Shown: piece after piece, positions 3,044 to 26,725 of the stretch
How the letters are laid out: every line of letters begins with the position of its first letter
Numbering within the stretch: position 1 is the stretch's first letter
Assembly: GCA_016212295.1 (NCBI GenBank)
Contig: JACRGO010000051.1
Coordinates: 1-30,270 of the forward strand
DNA: 30,270 bases
Origin: Nitrospinota bacterium
GTDB lineage: Bacteria > Nitrospinota > Nitrospinia > JACRGO01
Direction: 5' to 3'
The notes under the pieces: model-generated
Told to the model about the DNA's origin: nothing
Seen by the model: only the letters and a program-made list of their open reading frames with translations
Databases searched by the model: none
Position numbers and translations under genes: made by a program

Positions 3044-3550
3044 TTAGTCACTCGAGTAGTTCGTAAACCTGCAATAGATGAATTTTTGCGGCATGCCCGA
3101 GGGAGTAACGTGTAGTTCCTCCACCGCGTCCTTTAACTCGAAATTCCGTCCGATTTCCTTGGCAAGTGATTCCGGGCTGTACCGGACGACTTCCAATCCG
3201 CTGCACTTCGGAGGACCGTCCAAGGCGAAAGAGGCGATTATCAGGTGGCCGCCAGGCGCCAATGCCTGGTTCATCACTTTTACGTATTTATCCCGGTCAT
3301 TGGCGTCTGTAAGGAAATGGAAGACGGCGCGATCGTGCCAAAGATCAAATTTACGGTCAGGCTCGAATCCGGTGACGTCCGCCTCTATCCAGGAAATTTT
3401 TTGTGCATGTTTTCCAAGCCTGGATTTGGCCTGATTCAAGGAGGCAGTGGAAATATCCAGGACCGTCACGTTTTCAAATCCCTTTTCCACTAGTTCATCC
3501 ACAAGGACAGACGCGCCTCCCCCTACATCAATGATTTTTTGATTTCGGCT
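3044..3550 (-). pseudogene. 5'-truncated class I SAM methyltransferase
   Basis: The frame encodes most of a Rossmann-fold SAM-dependent methyltransferase: motif I IIDVGGGAS, then VTVLDIS, the acidic WIEADVT, WHDRAVFHFLTD and PGGHLIIASF. The first in-frame start is the GTG at 3500-3502, which lies downstream of the SAM-binding glycine loop. The conserved reading continues upstream only to SRNQK at 3550, where a TGA stops it. About 45 N-terminal residues normal for this family are therefore missing. The break lies only 10 bases beyond the stop codon of the MddA-like gene, so a deletion or rearrangement probably joined the two. A short product starting at the GTG would lack the cofactor loop and is unlikely to be active. 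The substrate of the intact family is not known to me. Confidence 0.75.
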
Positions 3551-12547: not shown

Positions 12548-12658
12548 TAACTACTCAGGCACAGAGGAAAAATAGAGTTATTGCCGGATTTTAAATTTTA
12601 AAATAAAATTTCAAACTCTGTGCCTTCTGCCTTTGTGCCTCTGTGCCTGAGTAGTTAC
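12548..12658. repeat. Fold-back repeat with perfect 21-bp arms, copy 1
   Basis: GTAACTACTCAGGCACAGAGG at 12548-12568 is exactly reverse-complementary to 12638-12658. The interior (GCCGGATTTTAAATTTTA..., TGTGCCTTCTGCCTTTGTGCC) is shared with a second copy at 26601-26718 before nfeD. No coding content was found. It lies upstream of the porin gene. Confidence 0.75.
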
Positions 12659-12712
12659 ATCCGCGAAAATCCGCGCTCCAAAAATAAAAAACCATCCCCC
12701 CCTTTCTTATAC

Positions 12713-12779
12713 AAAAAAAGCCGGCTAATGGGGAGGGTGTCCCCATTAGCCGGCTTTGGCATATTTTGCCTTTTACCTT
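12713..12779 (-). terminator. Two-hairpin terminator after the first amt operon (element E3)
   Basis: On the minus strand a small hairpin GGCA/TGCC (12770-12758) is followed by a perfect 18-bp stem with a 5-nt loop (12757-12740 with 12734-12717) and a run of seven U. It lies 82 bp after the zinc-ribbon gene and is a strong intrinsic terminator. It shares its layout, and the flanking words AAGGTAAAAGGCA and CGGCTTTTTTT, with the elements at 15097-15170 and 24497-24570. The stem sequence itself is different, which suggests that the structure is what is kept. Confidence 0.85.
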
Positions 12780-12860: not shown

Positions 12861-13046
12861 CTATTTCTTGCCCGCTTTTTCTCCAGGCAAAACAATCCGG
12901 AGAAATGGAATAACGGTTTCTCTCTTGCAGCGTTTGCATTTGGCAATGGCAAGCCCGGATTCAAACCTTACGAACCTGCTCTTGAGAAAATTATTCTCAA
13001 AGAGGTTGAACCCGCACTCGCATCTCACTGTTTTGTTTTGAGTCAT
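12861..13046 (-). CDS. Small zinc-ribbon protein downstream of amtB1
   Basis: A 61-residue basic protein with two knuckles, CEC at 9-11 and CKRC at 38-41, separated by a segment rich in hydrophobic and basic residues (NNFLKSRFVRFESGLAIA). This should bind one zinc ion, like Com-type or rubredoxin-like ribbons; I do not recognise a named family. The ATG at 13046 (MTQNKTVRCECG) is chosen because the paralogue at 24787-24957 begins MTQDKTVKCECG. An in-frame ATG three codons earlier (13055) also follows the amtB1 stop. No clear Shine-Dalgarno is visible, so translation may be coupled to amtB1. Its repeated placement after both ammonium transporters suggests a role tied to ammonium uptake or its control, which is inference. 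Confidence 0.8.
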   Translation of the reverse strand: MTQNKTVRCECGFNLFENNFLKSRFVRFESGLAIAKCKRCKRETVIPFLRIVLPGEKAGKK

Positions 13047-13056
13047 TGCAATCATT

Positions 13057-14373
13057 TTATAAGTTATACCCGCTCTCTCCATGCTGGGCTAAATCCAGCC
13101 CTAATACCTCATCTTCGTCTGATACCCTTAATCCCATGGTTGCGTCCAGGACCTTCAGGATAATAAAGGTAACCGCGAAGGCGAATACCCATGTGACGGC
13201 CACGGCAATCAACTGGGTCACGACAAGGGATGGATTGCCGAAGAACAGGCCGTCGTTCCCCGCGGGATTTATGGCCTTTGACGCGAACAGTCCGGTGGCT
13301 ATGGCGCCCCATGTCCCGCCCACTCCATGAACGCCGAAGGCGTCGAGGGAGTCGTCGTAACCAAGAGAAGACTTCACGACGGTCGCGAAGAAATAGCACA
13401 AAATCCCCGCCACCCCCCCTATGACGAGGGCGGATAAAGGCCCGACAAATCCCGAGGCCGGGGTAATGGCCACGAGGCCGGCCACCGCGCCGCTGGCCGC
13501 GCCGAGTACTGTCGGCTTGCCTTTGATTATCCATTCCATTAGAGGCCATGCAAGCGCGGCGGCGGCGGTGGCGGTGTTTGTCACGACAAAGGCGCAGGTG
13601 GACAACGCGCCCGATGATACCGCGCTCCCGGCGTTGAAGCCGAACCATCCGAACCAGAGAAGCGACGCGCCCACAACCGTTAAAGGGAGATTATGCGGCG
13701 CCATGGACTCCAGCGAGTAGCCCCTTCTCTTTCCCATCACAATCGCCGCGGCCAGCGCGGAAACGCCTGAACTGATATGGACGACCGTGCCGCCCGCGAA
13801 GTCAAGGGCGCCGAGATTCCTCAGCCATCCGCCGACGGCCCATACCCAGTGGCACAGGGGGTCATAGATGATGGTTGACCATAAAATCGTGAATACAAGG
13901 AACGTGGAGAATTTCATCCTTTCCGCGAAGGCGCCTGTTATGAGCGCGGGTGTTATAACAGCGAACATCATCTGGAATATCATGAATGCCTGATGGGGTA
14001 TGGTGGCGGCGTAATCAGGATTAGGATCAAGCCCCACCCCGTTTAATCCGACCCATGCAAGGCTTCCTATTACCCCCCCCTTGTCGGGACCAAAGGAAAG
14101 GCTGTATCCATATAAAACCCACTGGACGCTTATAAGGGCGAGTATTATAAAACTCTGCATTATCGTGCCGAGGATATTTTTTTTCCTCACCAGGCCGCCA
14201 TAGAATATCGCCAGTCCCGGGGCGGTCATTAACAGAACAAATGCAGTGGATGTGAGGACCCATGCCGTATCGCCGGTGTCGATGGCCGGTTTCGCCGCTT
14301 CTCCCTCCGCGAAACATATTGCAGGCGCGGCCTGTAAAAACGCCGCGAAAATAAACTTGATGAATTTACGCAT
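13057..14373 (-). CDS. amtB: Ammonium transporter AmtB (first copy)
   Basis: A 438-residue Amt/MEP/Rh channel for ammonium/ammonia in the inner membrane. A cleavable signal peptide (about 1-23, ending CFAEG) is followed by about 11 membrane segments. Family marks include GDTAWVL, PGLAIFYGGLVRKKN, GAFAERMKFS, the twin-histidine positions in LCHWVWAVGGW and GVHGVGGTWG, and NLPLTVVGASLLWFGWFGFNAGS. The ATG at 14373 has a perfect AGGAGG seven bases upstream. An in-frame extension to 14427 has no site and is rejected. It lies downstream of glnK (216-bp gap with AT-rich repeats) and upstream of the zinc-ribbon gene. GlnK should block the pore under nitrogen sufficiency. Transcription is expected from the sigma-54 promoter at 15200. 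Confidence 0.96.
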   Translation of the reverse strand: MRKFIKFIFAAFLQAAPAICFAEGEAAKPAIDTGDTAWVLTSTAFVLLMTAPGLAIFYGGLVRKKNILGTIMQSFIILALISVQWVLYGYSLSFGPDKGGVIGSLAWVGLNGVGLDPNPDYAATIPHQAFMIFQMMFAVITPALITGAFAERMKFSTFLVFTILWSTIIYDPLCHWVWAVGGWLRNLGALDFAGGTVVHISSGVSALAAAIVMGKRRGYSLESMAPHNLPLTVVGASLLWFGWFGFNAGSAVSSGALSTCAFVVTNTATAAAALAWPLMEWIIKGKPTVLGAASGAVAGLVAITPASGFVGPLSALVIGGVAGILCYFFATVVKSSLGYDDSLDAFGVHGVGGTWGAIATGLFASKAINPAGNDGLFFGNPSLVVTQLIAVAVTWVFAFAVTFIILKVLDATMGLRVSDEDEVLGLDLAQHGESGYNL

Positions 14374-14589: not shown

Positions 14590-14943
<354 letters not shown>

Positions 14944-15096: not shown

Positions 15097-15170
15097 GCCA
15101 AAAAAAAAGCCGACAAATAGAGAATCTCTCTCTATCCATCGGCTTTTGGCTTTTAAATGCCTTTTACCTT
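15097..15170 (-). promoter_or_regulatory. Two-hairpin attenuator-like element in the glnK leader (E1)
   Basis: On the minus strand a GGC/GCC mini-hairpin (15161-15148) precedes a hairpin with outer arms AAAAGCCGA/TCGGCTTTT (15147-15139 with 15113-15105). The inner arms ATAGAGA/TCTCTAT lie at 15135-15129 and 15123-15117, and U9 follows. It lies between the sigma-54 promoter (15200-15216) and glnK, so it would terminate the leader unless bypassed. It matches E2 at 24497-24570 in about 71 of 74 bases, with two of the three differences confined to the hairpin loop. Confidence 0.75.
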
Positions 15171-15199
15171 CTTATCTTTTTGGCGTACACCTTACTAAG

Positions 15200-15216
15200 A
15201 GCAAAAGGAATGCCAT
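15200..15216 (-). promoter_or_regulatory. Sigma-54 promoter for glnK-amtB1-zinc-ribbon operon
   Basis: The minus strand reads ATGGCATTCCTTTTGCT. GG and GC are separated by exactly 10 bases, matching the -24/-12 consensus TGGCAC-N5-TTGC. An identical core precedes amtB2 at 26398-26414. The predicted start is near 15188, leaving about 260 nt of leader before glnK. NtrC-type activation is expected but the activator is not in the window. Confidence 0.85.
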
Positions 15217-15255
15217 TAGCAGGAAATCAAATGAATCCATTGAAAAAACAGGGTT

Positions 15256-15376: not shown

Positions 15377-15537
15377 CAGCAATTCTCGGTGAAAAATGCA
15401 GGAGATTCTTCAGTCGCTTCACTCCTTCAGAATGACATTACGAAAGTCTGTAGCTGTCATTCTGAGCAGAGCGAAGAATCTCAGGCCTGAGCAGAGCGAA
15501 GAATCTCAGGCCTTTCGTGTTTCACCGAGAATTGCTG
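15377..15537. repeat. 161-bp fold-back repeat with internal 25-bp tandem duplication
   Basis: Perfect 18-bp arms (CAGCAATTCTCGGTGAAA at 15377-15394, complement at 15520-15537) bound the element. Inside, a 25-bp unit starting CTGAGCAGAGCGAAGAATC is perfectly repeated at 15462-15486 and 15487-15511. It also pairs imperfectly with GATTCTTCAGTCGCTTC on the left. This is the common TGTCATTCTGAGC-type dispersed repeat. No gene is seen between it and the kinase gene at 15675. The rest of the 14938-15674 gap holds the glnK leader and promoter described above. Confidence 0.75.
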
Positions 15538-15674: not shown

Positions 15675-18101
15675 ATGAAAACTTATAAAAACACAAACAA
15701 GGAAAAATTCGCCGCTTTTATGGAAAAAAATCCGGCAAAACAGGCATTCGTTGAAGCCGTGGTGGCGGATATGGACAACGAACGGATTGTGGCTGATCTT
15801 AGAAACGGATTATATGGGACAGCGGAAGGAGTTTATGTTGATGGCAGGTTTAACTCAGGCGAACGTATCAATTTGTATCACTATTTTGAAAAGGGAGAGA
15901 AATATCGTTTCCGCATAGACAAGTATGACGATGAGAACCTGCTTATCTGGCTACGGTTTGGGTTTGAAAATGAAAATTTCTGGGAAGAGATAGAGCGCCT
16001 TTACAAGTTAGGCCATGAAGTCATCGGGAAAGTTAGAGCCACAAGGAAATCCGGGGCGTTTATCGTTACCAGGGAAGGGTTCGATGGATTTATTCCACGC
16101 GAGGAAATATCCATTAAAGCAGCCCATGTTGGTGAAGACTGGGAAAAAGAAGGCTGGTTATTGCCGGGTGACAATGTAAAAGCGGTTGTCACAAAAATGG
16201 ACCGGCAAAAAAAAGAACTTGGGTTTAGCGTAAAAAGGTTTTTGCGCGATGCGGCCTTATCCGGGGGCAAGGTCTATAACGAAGGGAACTATGATCCCCC
16301 TCTGCCGGATTTATTGCCTTCATCCTCGGTTAGAGGGCTTTTCCATGAAAAAATTCCCCCCCATTCCGTAAAACATGAAAGCCAAAAAGAAGGAGAGGAA
16401 CCAAGTATCGGGCTTCCTGAAATTGAAAAAATCAAACAGATTTGCCCCATCCTCATCGTGGACGATGACTTAAACCATAACATGGCCCTTAAATGCAACT
16501 TTAGTTATTATGGAATTAAGGACGTCGATGTTTATTCTTCCCCTGAAAAGGCATTAAAAATATTAGAAGAAAAAAAATATGGGTTGATCATGGTTGATAT
16601 TAACATGACCAATATAAACGGGATAGAGTTTTTGCGGGCTCTTAATAAGATGAATTGCAGCTCCCCGGTCATTATTCTCTCTGGAATCAGAGTGCCCAGG
16701 TTCACCGAGCTAAAGCCCCAGGATTTTACTAATTGTTTCAATCTTCTATCCAAACCGGCAGCCTGGGAAGCCATAATCGAATCCATTGTCAAAGTAGCCA
16801 ACGTGGAGAAGGAAGATGTTTATCTCCTGTTTGCCGGAAAGAGGGAAGACAGGGGCCACCATTTTATCGATGTCATATCCCAGGCCGTTGAGGAGGAAAG
16901 GGGAAAGAGAGAGCTAATTATTTATAAAATTTTGGGAGACGTGGTAAAAGACCTTGACGCGGATATGGCCATGCTTGTTGAGATGCACCCCTTCACCGAG
17001 GAGGTCGGGCGAAACGCTTATCTCCTTGGGATTGACGAGCCTCAATTTGAAAGGGCCAGGAATGAACTGAGGTATTCCATTGTTTCCGATGTGGTATTAA
17101 AAGATGTGGAAATCCGGGAGGGCGATATCCAAAAAATTGAAGGCCAGGAAAAATCCAGGTATGCCGTATTCAAGCGTTTTGGAGGGATACGATCATGCAT
17201 GGGCATGCCGCTTTCAACTGCCACGGGAAACCGGTACGGCCTTTTCTTTTTTCACCGGGAAGCGGGACGCTTCAGCAAGGCGGATATGAGGCATGCGCGC
17301 ATTTGCGCCCATCTTTTTTCCGTGATCATGCACCAGGAAAGGCTGGAAGAGGCCCTGAAGCAATCGAGCCAGTTCGTGGCCCATGGACAAATGATCGACG
17401 GCCTCCTCCACGATATCAACCATAATCTGTCCATAGGGACCTTGTCCAAGCGTCTGCTGGCGGAAACCCTGGGAGAGATCAGGGACAACCCGTGTCTTTT
17501 AACCGGCGGCAATGAGACTTACGATTATTTTATCGGTTCCCTGGAGAGAATCATCAACACCATTGAAAAAACCGGGCAATTGGCAAAAGCCTACCTTAAT
17601 CCGCACCCCAAGGAAGAGCAAGCCACCTTCCTTCCTTCTTTTTTTAAATTTCTTCAATCAAAAATAGGGCCTTCCATAAAGGTATCCGAATCCAGCTTCA
17701 TGAGCCACCCATTCGATGAGCCGGTTTCCAGTCCCATCCCTCCGGTAATCCTTGAGATGCTTTTTCTTAATATAATACTCAACGCCATCCAGCAGTTGGG
17801 GATGGAAAATGTAAAAAGTGGCCAGATTGAACTAAGGGCGCAATTGAGATATCATTCGCCGGGAAAACCTGTCTGTCTGGTGGAAATCGCTGATAATGGC
17901 CCGGGCATCCACAGAAAGGATTATGACCGGATTTTTGAACCCCTCTTTACCACCAAGCCCGACGGCGCCGGGCTTGGTCTTTATATCTGCAAACATTTTT
18001 TCAATCATTACGGCGGTGCAATATATGTTAAAAAAAGTTATATGTTTTCCGGGACAGTGATAGCCATTGAGCTGCCCATTACAACTGGAGGAAATAAATG
18101 A
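15675..18101 (+). CDS. Hybrid S1-REC-GAF sensor histidine kinase
   Basis: An 808-residue soluble protein with an unusual order of domains. Residues about 42-95 look like a weak OB fold. Residues 114-187 form a clear S1 RNA-binding domain (GHEVIGKVRATRKSGAFIV, GFDGFIPREEIS, GDNVKAVVTKMD, LGFSVKRF). A REC domain spans 258-375, with D263-D265, phosphoacceptor D308 in VDINM and K360. A GAF-like region covers about 410-555. The kinase core has H579 in LLHDINHNLS, the N-box NAIQQLG with N703, DNGPG at 740-744 and GAGLGL at 764-769. No membrane segment is visible. The ATG at 15675 lacks a clear ribosome-binding site; an in-frame ATG 15 codons later is possible. Its end overlaps the next kinase gene by ATGA. 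Confidence 0.88.
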   Translation: MKTYKNTNKEKFAAFMEKNPAKQAFVEAVVADMDNERIVADLRNGLYGTAEGVYVDGRFNSGERINLYHYFEKGEKYRFRIDKYDDENLLIWLRFGFENENFWEEIERLYKLGHEVIGKVRATRKSGAFIVTREGFDGFIPREEISIKAAHVGEDWEKEGWLLPGDNVKAVVTKMDRQKKELGFSVKRFLRDAALSGGKVYNEGNYDPPLPDLLPSSSVRGLFHEKIPPHSVKHESQKEGEEPSIGLPEIEKIKQICPILIVDDDLNHNMALKCNFSYYGIKDVDVYSSPEKALKILEEKKYGLIMVDINMTNINGIEFLRALNKMNCSSPVIILSGIRVPRFTELKPQDFTNCFNLLSKPAAWEAIIESIVKVANVEKEDVYLLFAGKREDRGHHFIDVISQAVEEERGKRELIIYKILGDVVKDLDADMAMLVEMHPFTEEVGRNAYLLGIDEPQFERARNELRYSIVSDVVLKDVEIREGDIQKIEGQEKSRYAVFKRFGGIRSCMGMPLSTATGNRYGLFFFHREAGRFSKADMRHARICAHLFSVIMHQERLEEALKQSSQFVAHGQMIDGLLHDINHNLSIGTLSKRLLAETLGEIRDNPCLLTGGNETYDYFIGSLERIINTIEKTGQLAKAYLNPHPKEEQATFLPSFFKFLQSKIGPSIKVSESSFMSHPFDEPVSSPIPPVILEMLFLNIILNAIQQLGMENVKSGQIELRAQLRYHSPGKPVCLVEIADNGPGIHRKDYDRIFEPLFTTKPDGAGLGLYICKHFFNHYGGAIYVKKSYMFSGTVIAIELPITTGGNK

Positions 18102-23701: not shown

Positions 23702-24037
23702 TTATAAGGCAACTTCAATCAGGGCGTTTTCCCGGCTTCGCGGCTTTTGCCGCACGGTCAGCGTGACGTCACGGCCTAGCTTGTTAAGCCAATTCAAAAG
23801 GCGATCGAATGTGTAGCTCTCCAGGCATTGTCCACTCTTTAGCCGTGATATATGAGATTGGTCCGTTCCCAGAAGGCTTGCCGCGGCCTTCGGGCTCAAT
23901 TTGCATTGGTCTATAATTTTTAAAATTTCAACCGCAAGCCTGCTTTTAGCTAAAAGCTCTTCAGCGTCTTCAAGCCCAAGGTCGGCAAATACGTTGCCGC
24001 AGCTCTCTGTCACTTCAATTGTTTCAGTTCTTTTCAC
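23702..24037 (-). CDS. HigA-like XRE antitoxin
   Basis: A 111-residue DNA-binding protein with ESCGNVFADLGL near the start. Its helix-turn-helix is CKLSPKAAASLLGTDQSHISRL (split as CKLSPKAAASLLG and TDQSHISRL), then SYTFDRLLNWLNKLGRDV. This is the layout of HigA/HTH_37 antitoxins paired with Gp49-like toxins. The GTG at 24037 has AAGGAG seven bases upstream and overlaps the toxin stop by 14 bp. A TTG at 24073 in the same frame lacks such a site. Toxin-first order is typical of higBA, and autorepression by the complex is expected. It lies convergent with the amidohydrolase gene. Confidence 0.85.
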   Translation of the reverse strand: MKRTETIEVTESCGNVFADLGLEDAEELLAKSRLAVEILKIIDQCKLSPKAAASLLGTDQSHISRLKSGQCLESYTFDRLLNWLNKLGRDVTLTVRQKPRSRENALIEVAL

Positions 24038-24392
24038 TGCATTTCTCCTTACTTTGTTCCTTCGCCCTTCCAAGGCGTTGCCTTATTAAATCCATGTCCT
24101 CCCTGGAGGTTTTAATACCTTTTTTTGATTTCTTTTTGAAACAATGAAGAACATAAACCACGCCGCCAAGGTCGGCTGCATATACTGCCCGGTAGGCATC
24201 CTTGTCATATCGCTCGACTAACTCCATCACTCCAGGCAAGCCTTTAAGGGCCTTAGCTTCCTTCGGCGTCTCTCCTGTTTGAACAAGGTATAACTCATGG
24301 CCAATGCGTCTCCGCGCCACTTTTGGAAAGTTTAACACGTCCTTTTTCGCGCTACCGATAAATTCCAGATGCTTTATCTCAATATCAATCAC
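24024..24392 (-). CDS. HigB/Gp49-like RelE-family toxin
   Basis: About 122 residues matching phage-derived Gp49-like/HigB toxins, which are ribosome-associated mRNA nucleases. Typical text is present: KHLEFIGSAKKDVLNFP, RIGHELYLVQTGE, AKALKGLPGVMELVERYD, YRAVYAADLGGVVYVLHCF, KKSKKGIKTSREDMDLI. The frame stays open to an ATG at 24539, but that ATG and the next codons lie inside the hairpin terminator E2 and are not plausible coding sequence. The GTG at 24392, with GGAG 12 bases upstream, gives the usual family length, though a start a little upstream cannot be excluded. It overlaps the antitoxin gene by 14 bp. Confidence 0.78.
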   Translation of the reverse strand: MIDIEIKHLEFIGSAKKDVLNFPKVARRRIGHELYLVQTGETPKEAKALKGLPGVMELVERYDKDAYRAVYAADLGGVVYVLHCFKKKSKKGIKTSREDMDLIRQRLGRAKEQSKEKCSEKN

Positions 24393-24496
24393 AAGTAAAT
24401 TATGCTCCAGCCGTTTTAAAACTTCAAGTGGGATGGGCGCAATTTTTCCACCAACGAAATCAAAAAATTGAAATAGCTCGCCTCCCTTTAGTTTTG

Positions 24497-24570
24497 GCCA
24501 AAAAAAAAGCCGACAAATAGAGAACCACTCTCTATCCATCGGCTTTTGGCTTTTAAATGCCTTTTGCCTT
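24497..24570 (-). terminator. Two-hairpin terminator after the second amt operon (element E2)
   Basis: Reading the minus strand, a GGC/GCC mini-hairpin is followed by an AAAAGCCGA...TCGGCTTTT stem with inner arms ATAGAGA/TCTCTAT and U9. It is nearly identical to E1 in the glnK leader; two of the three differences fall in the hairpin loop (AUCUC versus ACCAC) and one in the flank. It lies 217 bp beyond the second zinc-ribbon gene and just before the toxin gene. Confidence 0.8.
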
Positions 24571-24648
24571 TTTAAATTTCTTACACGTTCATTCTAATAA
24601 TTTGCCTCGCATAATCCATTTAGGTTTGTGAATCAAAATTCAAAAATG

Positions 24649-24755
24649 AACCGCGGAGACACAGAGACGCGGAGATTTTTGTAAAATGCTTACAGTTGTT
24701 GGGGCACGATGCATCGTGCCCTTACCTTCTCTGCGTCTTTGCGATCTCCGCTGTG
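24649..24755. repeat. Fold-back repeat with central 20-bp palindrome
   Basis: The left arm CGCGGAGACACAGAGACGC pairs imperfectly with GCGTCTTTGCGATCTCCGC on the right. The centre is a perfect palindrome at 24702-24721 (GGGCACGATG and its complement). Related CTGCGTCTCTGTG words occur near 11365-11392. No gene is seen in 24393-24786 apart from this repeat and terminator E2. Confidence 0.65.
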
Positions 24756-24786
24756 AAAAAATTTTAAATATTTTTTGAGAATTTTT

Positions 24787-24969: not shown

Positions 24970-26313
24970 CTACCTTTCTCCGGTTACAGGCGGGTGTATC
25001 CCCCCAAAGCCGTGGCTGTAGGCGTTTTCTCCATGCAGGGCAAGATCAAGCCCATTGTGTTCATCCTCCTGGGAAACCCTGTGCCCCATGAATTTAAGCG
25101 CCGCGAGTATTAAGAGGGTCCCAACAACAGCCAAGGCGTAAGTGGCGGCAACCGCAATGGCCTGTTTCTCGAATTGGCCGGGGTTTCCATAAAAAAGGCC
25201 GTTGATCCCTCCAATCTTCTCTGATGCGAATAGGCCGGTGGCCAAGGTCCCCCAGGTGCCTGCCACCCCGTGTACCCCGAATACGTCCAGGGAATCGTCG
25301 TAACCCATCCTTGGTTTGAAAATCATTACAGCGTAGTAACAAAAAAGACTGGCCGCGAAACCAATGGCTATGGATGACATTGGACTCACGAAGCCCGCCG
25401 CCGGGGTGATGGAGCCCAGCCCGGCTATGGCGCCTGTCGCCACTCCAAGAATGGTGGGTTTGCCCCTGTGGGCCCATTCCAGCATGGCCCAGGTGAAGGT
25501 CGCCATCCCAGCCGAGGTGTTGGTTGTTACAAAGGCGTTCACCGCTGAGCCGTTCGCGGCAAGGGCGCTTCCCGCGTTGAATCCGAACCATCCGAACCAC
25601 AGGAGACCAAGGCCAAGCACCGTCATGGGAAGGTTATTAGGCGGCATTGGCTCATGGGGGTAGCCCCTGCGTTTTCCCACCACGATGGCTGCGACCAGGG
25701 CGGAGGCGCCGCAGCTTATGTGAACCACCGCGCCCCCGGCGAAATCGACGGCCCCGAGTTTCATCAGCCACCCGCCTCCCCATACCCAATGGGCAAGAGG
25801 ATCATAGACAAAGGTGGCCCAAAGCAGGGTGAAGACAATGAGCGTGGAAAATTTAATCCTCTCTATGAAGGCCCCGGTTATAAGGGCCGGGGTGATGATC
25901 GCGAACATCCCCTGGAACATCATGAAGAGCTGATGAGGGATGGTGGACCCGGGGGCAGGTTCCAGTCCGACCCCGTTAAGCCCAAGAAAATCCAGGCCCC
26001 CGACGATTCCCCCCTTGTCCGGGCCAAAGGCCAGGGTATATCCCCACAGGACCCATTGCACGCTTATCAGGCAAAGGCAGATGAAGGAGAGCATAAGAGT
26101 ATTGAGAAGGTTCTTCCTTCTGACCATTCCTCCGTAAAAAAGGGCAAGGCCTGGGGTCATGAGCATCACCATGGCGGTTGATATCAAAAGCCAGGCCGTG
26201 TTGCCTGAATCAATGGATGCGGCCGCGTCCTCCTGGGCCCAAAGCATGGAGGGCTGGAATAGCGCCGCGGCGGCTGTTAGGAGTAAAACGAGATATAAAT
26301 TGATAAGTTTCAT
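24970..26313 (-). CDS. amtB: Ammonium transporter AmtB (second copy)
   Basis: A 447-residue Amt channel with a signal peptide (about 1-26, ending LWAQ) and about 11 membrane segments. Key marks: SGNTAWLLIS, PGLALFYGGMVRRKN, GAFIERIKFS, DPLAHWVWGGGW and GVHGVAGTWGTLATG, which carry the twin histidines of the pore. It is close to the first copy throughout but has a longer C-terminus ending HGFGGIHPPVTGER. The ATG has GGGGG eight bases upstream. Unlike the first copy it has no glnK beside it; it may be regulated by the same PII protein. The promoter is the sigma-54 site at 26398, giving a leader of about 73 nt. Confidence 0.96.
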   Translation of the reverse strand: MKLINLYLVLLLTAAAALFQPSMLWAQEDAAASIDSGNTAWLLISTAMVMLMTPGLALFYGGMVRRKNLLNTLMLSFICLCLISVQWVLWGYTLAFGPDKGGIVGGLDFLGLNGVGLEPAPGSTIPHQLFMMFQGMFAIITPALITGAFIERIKFSTLIVFTLLWATFVYDPLAHWVWGGGWLMKLGAVDFAGGAVVHISCGASALVAAIVVGKRRGYPHEPMPPNNLPMTVLGLGLLWFGWFGFNAGSALAANGSAVNAFVTTNTSAGMATFTWAMLEWAHRGKPTILGVATGAIAGLGSITPAAGFVSPMSSIAIGFAASLFCYYAVMIFKPRMGYDDSLDVFGVHGVAGTWGTLATGLFASEKIGGINGLFYGNPGQFEKQAIAVAATYALAVVGTLLILAALKFMGHRVSQEDEHNGLDLALHGENAYSHGFGGIHPPVTGER

Positions 26314-26397
26314 GCCAAAACCCCCTGATTGAAAAATAAAAAATGGAAAAATTTCCCATCGGCGGAAAAAGCGGTCTAACCTTGTCTTCTTCCATTG

Positions 26398-26414
26398 AGC
26401 AAAAGGAATGCCAT
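26398..26414 (-). promoter_or_regulatory. Sigma-54 promoter for amtB2-zinc-ribbon operon
   Basis: The minus strand reads ATGGCATTCCTTTTGCT, identical to the glnK promoter, with GG-N10-GC spacing. The predicted start is near 26386. A leader hairpin with a following U-run (about 26361-26333) lies before the ribosome-binding site. Confidence 0.85.
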
Positions 26415-26453
26415 CTTCAAACTAATAACCCAACATGTTGAATTTTAATGCTT

Positions 26454-26490: not shown

Positions 26491-26600
26491 TGCTTTAAAA
26501 AGTGGCAGAAAAGGAGGGCCATGCCTTATTTTCGAGCTTTAAATTGCGAAACCCTGTGGCTTTGATCGGCATCATCACTATATAATGAGGAAATTAGATA

Positions 26601-26718
26601 GAGGCACAAAGACAAAAGGCACAGAGTAAAAGATTAAAAGAGAGCTTTGCCGGATTGTAAATTTTATAATGAAATTTTAAGCTTTGTGCCTTCTGCCTTT
26701 GTGCCTGAGTTATTACAT
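26601..26718. repeat. Fold-back repeat, copy 2 (before nfeD)
   Basis: This repeat shares GCCGGATT-TAAATTTTA and TGTGCCTTCTGCCTTTGTGCCTGAGT with the copy at 12548-12658. The left arm GAGGCACAAAGACAAAAGGCACAGAG pairs with the right. It creates an open frame upstream of nfeD that is not likely to be translated. The rest of the 26314-26725 gap holds the amtB2 promoter region. Confidence 0.65.
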
Positions 26719-26725
26719 ACTTATC

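Follow-up and report, generated by a model that had tools for sequence, protein, structure and literature searches.

The glnK-amtB operons are among the best studied of the sigma54/NtrC-controlled operons, with control described at the promoter and protein levels. RAT sequences (BglG/SacY/LicT), small internally looped hairpins that extend into a terminator at its 5′ base, are known from sugar genes, and ANTAR-controlled leaders, in which two hairpins lie upstream of, or overlap, a terminator, include the NasR-controlled leader of nitrogen genes. EutV represents another ANTAR-controlled case (PMC3369931). In enterobacteria, a moderate Rho-independent terminator is located between glnA and glnLG, and the small RNA GlnZ derives from glnA (PMC9731577). 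No report of a glnK attenuator was found in the literature searched, the coverage of which was partial.

The window analyzed here, a stretch of 30,270 nucleotides from a Nitrospinota bacterium, carries three copies (E1, E2, and E3, ∼70 nt each) of an RNA element, all on the minus strand and all in ammonium-transporter operons. The relevant features are as follows.

26397-26415, minus strand: amtB-operon promoter of the sigma54 -24/-12 type, sharing 18 identical bp with the glnK-operon promoter
24970-26313, minus strand: amtB, encoding an ammonium transporter with 74% identity to the product of the first amt in the sister genome
24787-24957, minus strand: znr2, small four-cysteine protein
24497-24570, minus strand: element E2, 3′ of znr2 (fold, covariance model)
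15199-15217, minus strand: glnK-operon promoter of the sigma54 -24/-12 type, ATGGCATTCCTTTTGCTC (exact pattern)
15097-15170, minus strand: element E1, the leader copy (fold, covariance model)
15141-15170, minus strand: 5′ module of E1
15109-15143, minus strand: terminator stem-loop of E1, its first GCC common to the module
15100-15108, minus strand: U-run of E1
14590-14928, minus strand: glnK, PII protein (Pfam P-II, 2.9e-34)
13057-14370, minus strand: amtA, ammonium transporter (Pfam Ammonium_transp, 9.5e-131)
12861-13046, minus strand: znr1, encoding a small protein with four conserved cysteines that may form a zinc ribbon
12711-12779, minus strand: element E3, 3′ of znr1 (fold, covariance model)

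The element resembles the glnA-glnLG case in being a Rho-independent terminator that separates a structural from a regulatory gene in a nitrogen operon of the sigma54/NtrC type (PMC9731577). It differs in that other genes are involved, a leader copy is also present, and the enterobacterial operon, for which no common sequence module is known, has its own downstream promoter, glnLp. The overlap of a small, internally looped hairpin with the 5′ side of the terminator base also recalls RAT sequences, and the presence of two hairpins at a terminator recalls ANTAR leaders. A BglG-type antiterminator was rejected, because neither of the two genomes of the genus (that of the window and its sister) encoded a CAT_RBD protein, whereas controls were positive in four, and the Rfam bglG-cis-reg score of 15.7 bits lay far below the cut-off of 80. 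The loops of the element, unlike those of ANTAR leaders, are not two hexaloops, and ANTAR matches were absent from both genomes in a search that also gave none in the control genomes. No Rfam family, including the glutamine/glnA and Downstream-peptide RNAs, exceeded its gathering cut-off in the window; the best sub-threshold match was FinP (24.9 of 45 bits).

Relocation and folding bore out the first-pass annotation, which had described three elements on the transcribed minus strand (E3 there at 12713-12779), two of them ending the amt operons: E3 follows glnK-amtA-znr1, and E2 follows amtB-znr2. The three copies share a 5′ module consisting of AAGGYAAAAGGCA..GCC with a short GGC..GCC hairpin. 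The 13 bases of AAGGYAAAAGGCA occur four times in the 3.74-Mb genome, at E1, E2, E3, and one unrelated repeat whose context lacks such a terminator. All three elements folded far below shuffled sequences (z of -5.4, -5.2, and -6.0), and E1 matches E2 at 95% of positions across 79 bp. The stem of E3 had been described as completely different; its middle does differ, with compensatory changes, but the GCCG/CGGC base and a GA/TC near the tip are kept. Scored with a covariance model derived from the copies, E1, E2, and E3 reached 97, 95.5, and 80 bits in their own genome, where the next match, setting aside antisense matches of the same hairpins, reached 21 bits. Across this genome and the sister, the other matches scored at most 27 bits and consisted of these hairpins read in antisense or of generic terminators. 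The model found copies only at amt/glnK operons of the genus, and neither it nor the genome-wide motif count revealed the scatter over random loci that would mark an ordinary repeat; with three copies in the genome and one syntenic copy in the sister, a dispersed repeat was rejected. In-frame ATGs within the hairpins were judged to be due to chance, as their frame differs between copies.

Covariance-model searching of relatives, which the earlier annotation had proposed, yielded one more copy, again directly before glnK, in Nitrospinia bacterium OFTM173, the sole other genome of the genus examined. This sister genome contains a single element, 84% identical to E1 over 61 bases, on one contig with the order sigma54-amtB-znr-E-glnK-amt. 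The terminator hairpins of all four copies have a stem of exactly 15 bp and a loop of 5 nt, followed by 7 to 9 U residues; all 15 pairs hold in each copy, and four pairs are changed on both sides. A survey of 645 kb of the genome of the window gave 40 terminator-like hairpins, and the longest perfect stems were those of E1, E2, and E3. In each of the four copies, a G+C-based hairpin is followed directly by the U-run, and by architecture the elements are intrinsic terminators.

The placement of E1 between a sigma54 promoter and glnK, as first proposed, was corroborated by an exact -24/-12 site upstream of E1. The pattern TGGCATTCCTTTTGCT occurred at only two sites in 645 kb of genome, upstream of glnK and of amtB. 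Judging from the position of the -12 element, the glnK-operon transcript is predicted to start at ∼15190, ∼20 nt before E1, which puts the terminator at ∼+90. The leader order of sigma54, E1, and glnK thus places a terminator between promoter and gene, as in an attenuator. On the minus strand, no sigma70-like site was recognized in the gap from E1 to glnK, which exceeds 160 nt and has room for a promoter of an unrecognized type. In the sister genome, the only sigma54 site lies upstream of amtB, and neither a sigma70- nor a sigma54-like site was visible between the 3′ end of znr and glnK. The U-run there ends at position 3360 of its contig (L018) and the glnK ATG is at 3388, leaving 27 nt that hold only a ribosome site; given this spacing and the lack of a visible promoter, glnK is probably transcribed through the element. 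Readthrough is therefore probably needed for glnK in two independent arrangements, those of the window and of the sister. The region between the glnK operon and its divergent neighbor contains, at 15381-15537, an inverted pair (AGCAATTCTCGGTGAA/TTCACCGAGAATTGCT) around a tandem CCTGAGATTCTTCGCTCTGCTCAG, probably a dispersed repeat. The divergent gene itself (15675-18101, plus strand) encodes a sensor kinase with an unusual combination of S1 RNA-binding, response regulator, GAF, and HATPase domains; an S1 RNA-binding domain in a kinase adjoining an RNA element is a possible lead.

The short distance from start to terminator is also what would be expected if the sigma54 promoter and E1 yielded a free RNA of ∼90 nt under nitrogen limitation, with E2 and E3 giving rise to similar species from amt 3′ ends, much as GlnZ derives from glnA (PMC9731577), and with glnK served by a promoter downstream of E1. 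We consider such a small RNA quite unlikely, because the sister copy has no promoter of its own just before the element and no space for one between the element and glnK. Moreover, no promoter was recognized downstream of E1 in the window, and by our own reading the unpaired portion that is conserved is rich in purines, which typical anti-Shine-Dalgarno seeds are not.

Comparison of the two sigma54 operons indicated how a terminator may have come to lie in a leader. The regions upstream of the glnK and amtB sigma54 cores are similar in register (z of 3.5-3.6 over 90-120 nt; no more than 2 of 1000 shuffles were as good), and the amtB upstream region has its ortholog upstream of amtB in the sister (z up to 4.9). 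With paralogous promoter regions, the leader copy probably arose by duplication of the operon and loss of amtB-znr. The simplest account would be an ancestral sigma54-amtB-znr-E-glnK operon that was duplicated in the lineage of the window, after which one copy would have lost glnK (leaving amtB-znr2-E2) and the other amtB-znr (leaving sigma54-E1-glnK). The flanks of E1 and E2 are not recognizably alike, and their 95% identity is confined to the element, which points to recent copying, gene conversion of the element, or constraint. A possible remnant of the glnK ribosome site after E2 was set aside as too weak (47 of 1000 shuffles were as good). Directly after E2, at 23702-24539 on the minus strand, is a HigB/HigA-like toxin-antitoxin pair (Gp49, HTH_37), the open frame of which extends back into the E2 hairpin. 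Imperfect AGGCACAAAGGCAGAAGGCACAAAG-type repeats, probably dispersed, occur near the amt operons at 12560-12660, 24640-24760, and 26590-26720.

This history explains the arrival of the terminator in the leader, not why it was kept there. It might be held that the elements are plain terminators duplicated with the amt-znr unit and that E1 is a non-functional relic, with glnK transcribed from an unseen promoter or hardly expressed. The restriction of the recent E1/E2 duplication to 79 bp, the location of E3 and E2 at operon ends, and the presence of a second PII gene elsewhere in both genomes would all suit a relic. We regard this as most improbable, as the position before glnK is kept in the sister, where all 15 pairs persist even though the element is only 84% identical. 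The main rival to regulation is instead a fixed partial terminator, a constant leak that would set the ratio of amtB-znr to glnK mRNA, and so the transporter-to-PII stoichiometry, with no signal involved and with the leader copy a left-over of duplication. The amtB-znr-E-glnK arrangement of the sister, the paralogy of the glnK and amtB promoter regions, the near-identity of E1 and E2, and the glnA-glnLG precedent (PMC9731577) are consistent with such a leak, which is possible if somewhat doubtful: the stem length and the U9 run suggest strong rather than leaky termination, and a bare leaky terminator would not need the 5′ module, the identity of which is kept far above that of the flanks.

We turn to the module, which could serve as an antiterminator. 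In all four copies it is predicted to fold as GGY-N4-GGC-loop-GCC-N3/4-GCC, a small nested hairpin whose last GCC is the first GCC of the terminator stem. The minimum free energy structure of the module alone sequesters that GCC in each copy (-6.9, -8.5, -7.2, and -9.1 kcal/mol). When growth of the leader was simulated, the nested fold persisted until the 3′ arm of the terminator emerged, whereupon the terminator won; the margin is moderate, as the outer helix of the module gains ∼3-5 kcal/mol, versus ∼8.6 kcal/mol for the three basal pairs of the terminator, and 12 terminator pairs are untouched by the nested hairpin. In 7 of the 37 other terminators in the same sample, the first three bases were also engaged to some extent in upstream pairing, and only one of the 37 had an equally stable upstream module taking the stem base. 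Covariation within the module was minimal, at one Y position, and cannot decide for or against an antiterminator because there are only four copies, two of them nearly identical. The same module is also present in the operon-end copies, at positions that have no need of regulation. Taken together, the nested 5′ module is a plausible candidate for a weak antiterminator.

The terminator architecture, the conservation of the module, the position before glnK in both genomes, and the mutually exclusive predicted pairings can be read from the nucleotide sequences; actual termination, conditional readthrough, which way the response runs, and what kind of signal drives it are what we infer. Polymerase that starts at the sigma54 promoter in the window, or comes out of amtB-znr in the sister, would run into the hairpin with its U-run; glnK and the genes downstream would be transcribed only by the portion that gets past the element. 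The nested hairpin would form first and take the first GCC of the terminator stem; being too weak to win alone, it would leave termination as the default. A protein, a small molecule, or an elongation state that stabilized the nested hairpin would permit readthrough, and the operon-end copies E2 and E3 would act as ordinary terminators. The initial suggestion that the leader copy is an attenuator was strengthened by retention of the position before glnK in the sister and by the alternative hairpin predicted in four of four copies, and its dependence on a signal stays a proposal. We give an even chance to the element being an intrinsic terminator with an upstream regulatory module, acting as an attenuator before glnK.

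The small protein Znr is a candidate binding partner, as the first-pass annotation had suggested. Its four cysteines are conserved in three homologues, and the gene was found in 2 of 195 genomes searched, only in this genus, and at one locus in a collection of 84,980 genomes. Comparison with Pfam, PHROG, NCBIfam, and PDB sequences gave no noteworthy match, and the AlphaFold model (mean pLDDT of 69) gave no significant fold match. A znr gene precedes the operon-end or intercistronic copy of the element at all three amt-znr loci, which is not independent evidence for an interaction since both are in the same operons. It is unlikely, if conceivable, that the element represents a new antiterminator RNA of glnK under the control of a protein or metabolite, with Znr possibly the trans-acting factor, so that PII synthesis would be checked a second time, at the RNA level, once sigma54 has activated transcription.

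Beyond the genus, matches to the covariance model in 40 other genomes all scored below 40 bits, and none of these weak matches that were inspected in context lay with glnK, amt, or znr. Other members of the class possess PII and Amt genes without znr or the element, and most of their glnK/amt genes have no comparable hairpin upstream. One genome of another family (G015) encodes an Amt that shares 88% identity with AmtA of the window (contig C400, L088/L117), compared with 63% for the nearest sister protein, and its glnK-amt pair lacks znr and the element; this closer match may reflect horizontal transfer or a mixed assembly.

The best reading is that of a genus-specific attenuator governing the entry of polymerase into glnK, by regulation or else by fixed leakiness. 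Its generality is limited because it is found in one genus only, with a genus-specific small protein. If true, an attenuator before glnK would add a transcription-elongation step to the control of this operon and uncouple the level of PII from that of the transporter, and it would offer an example of an attenuator that reached its leader position through operon duplication and gene loss.
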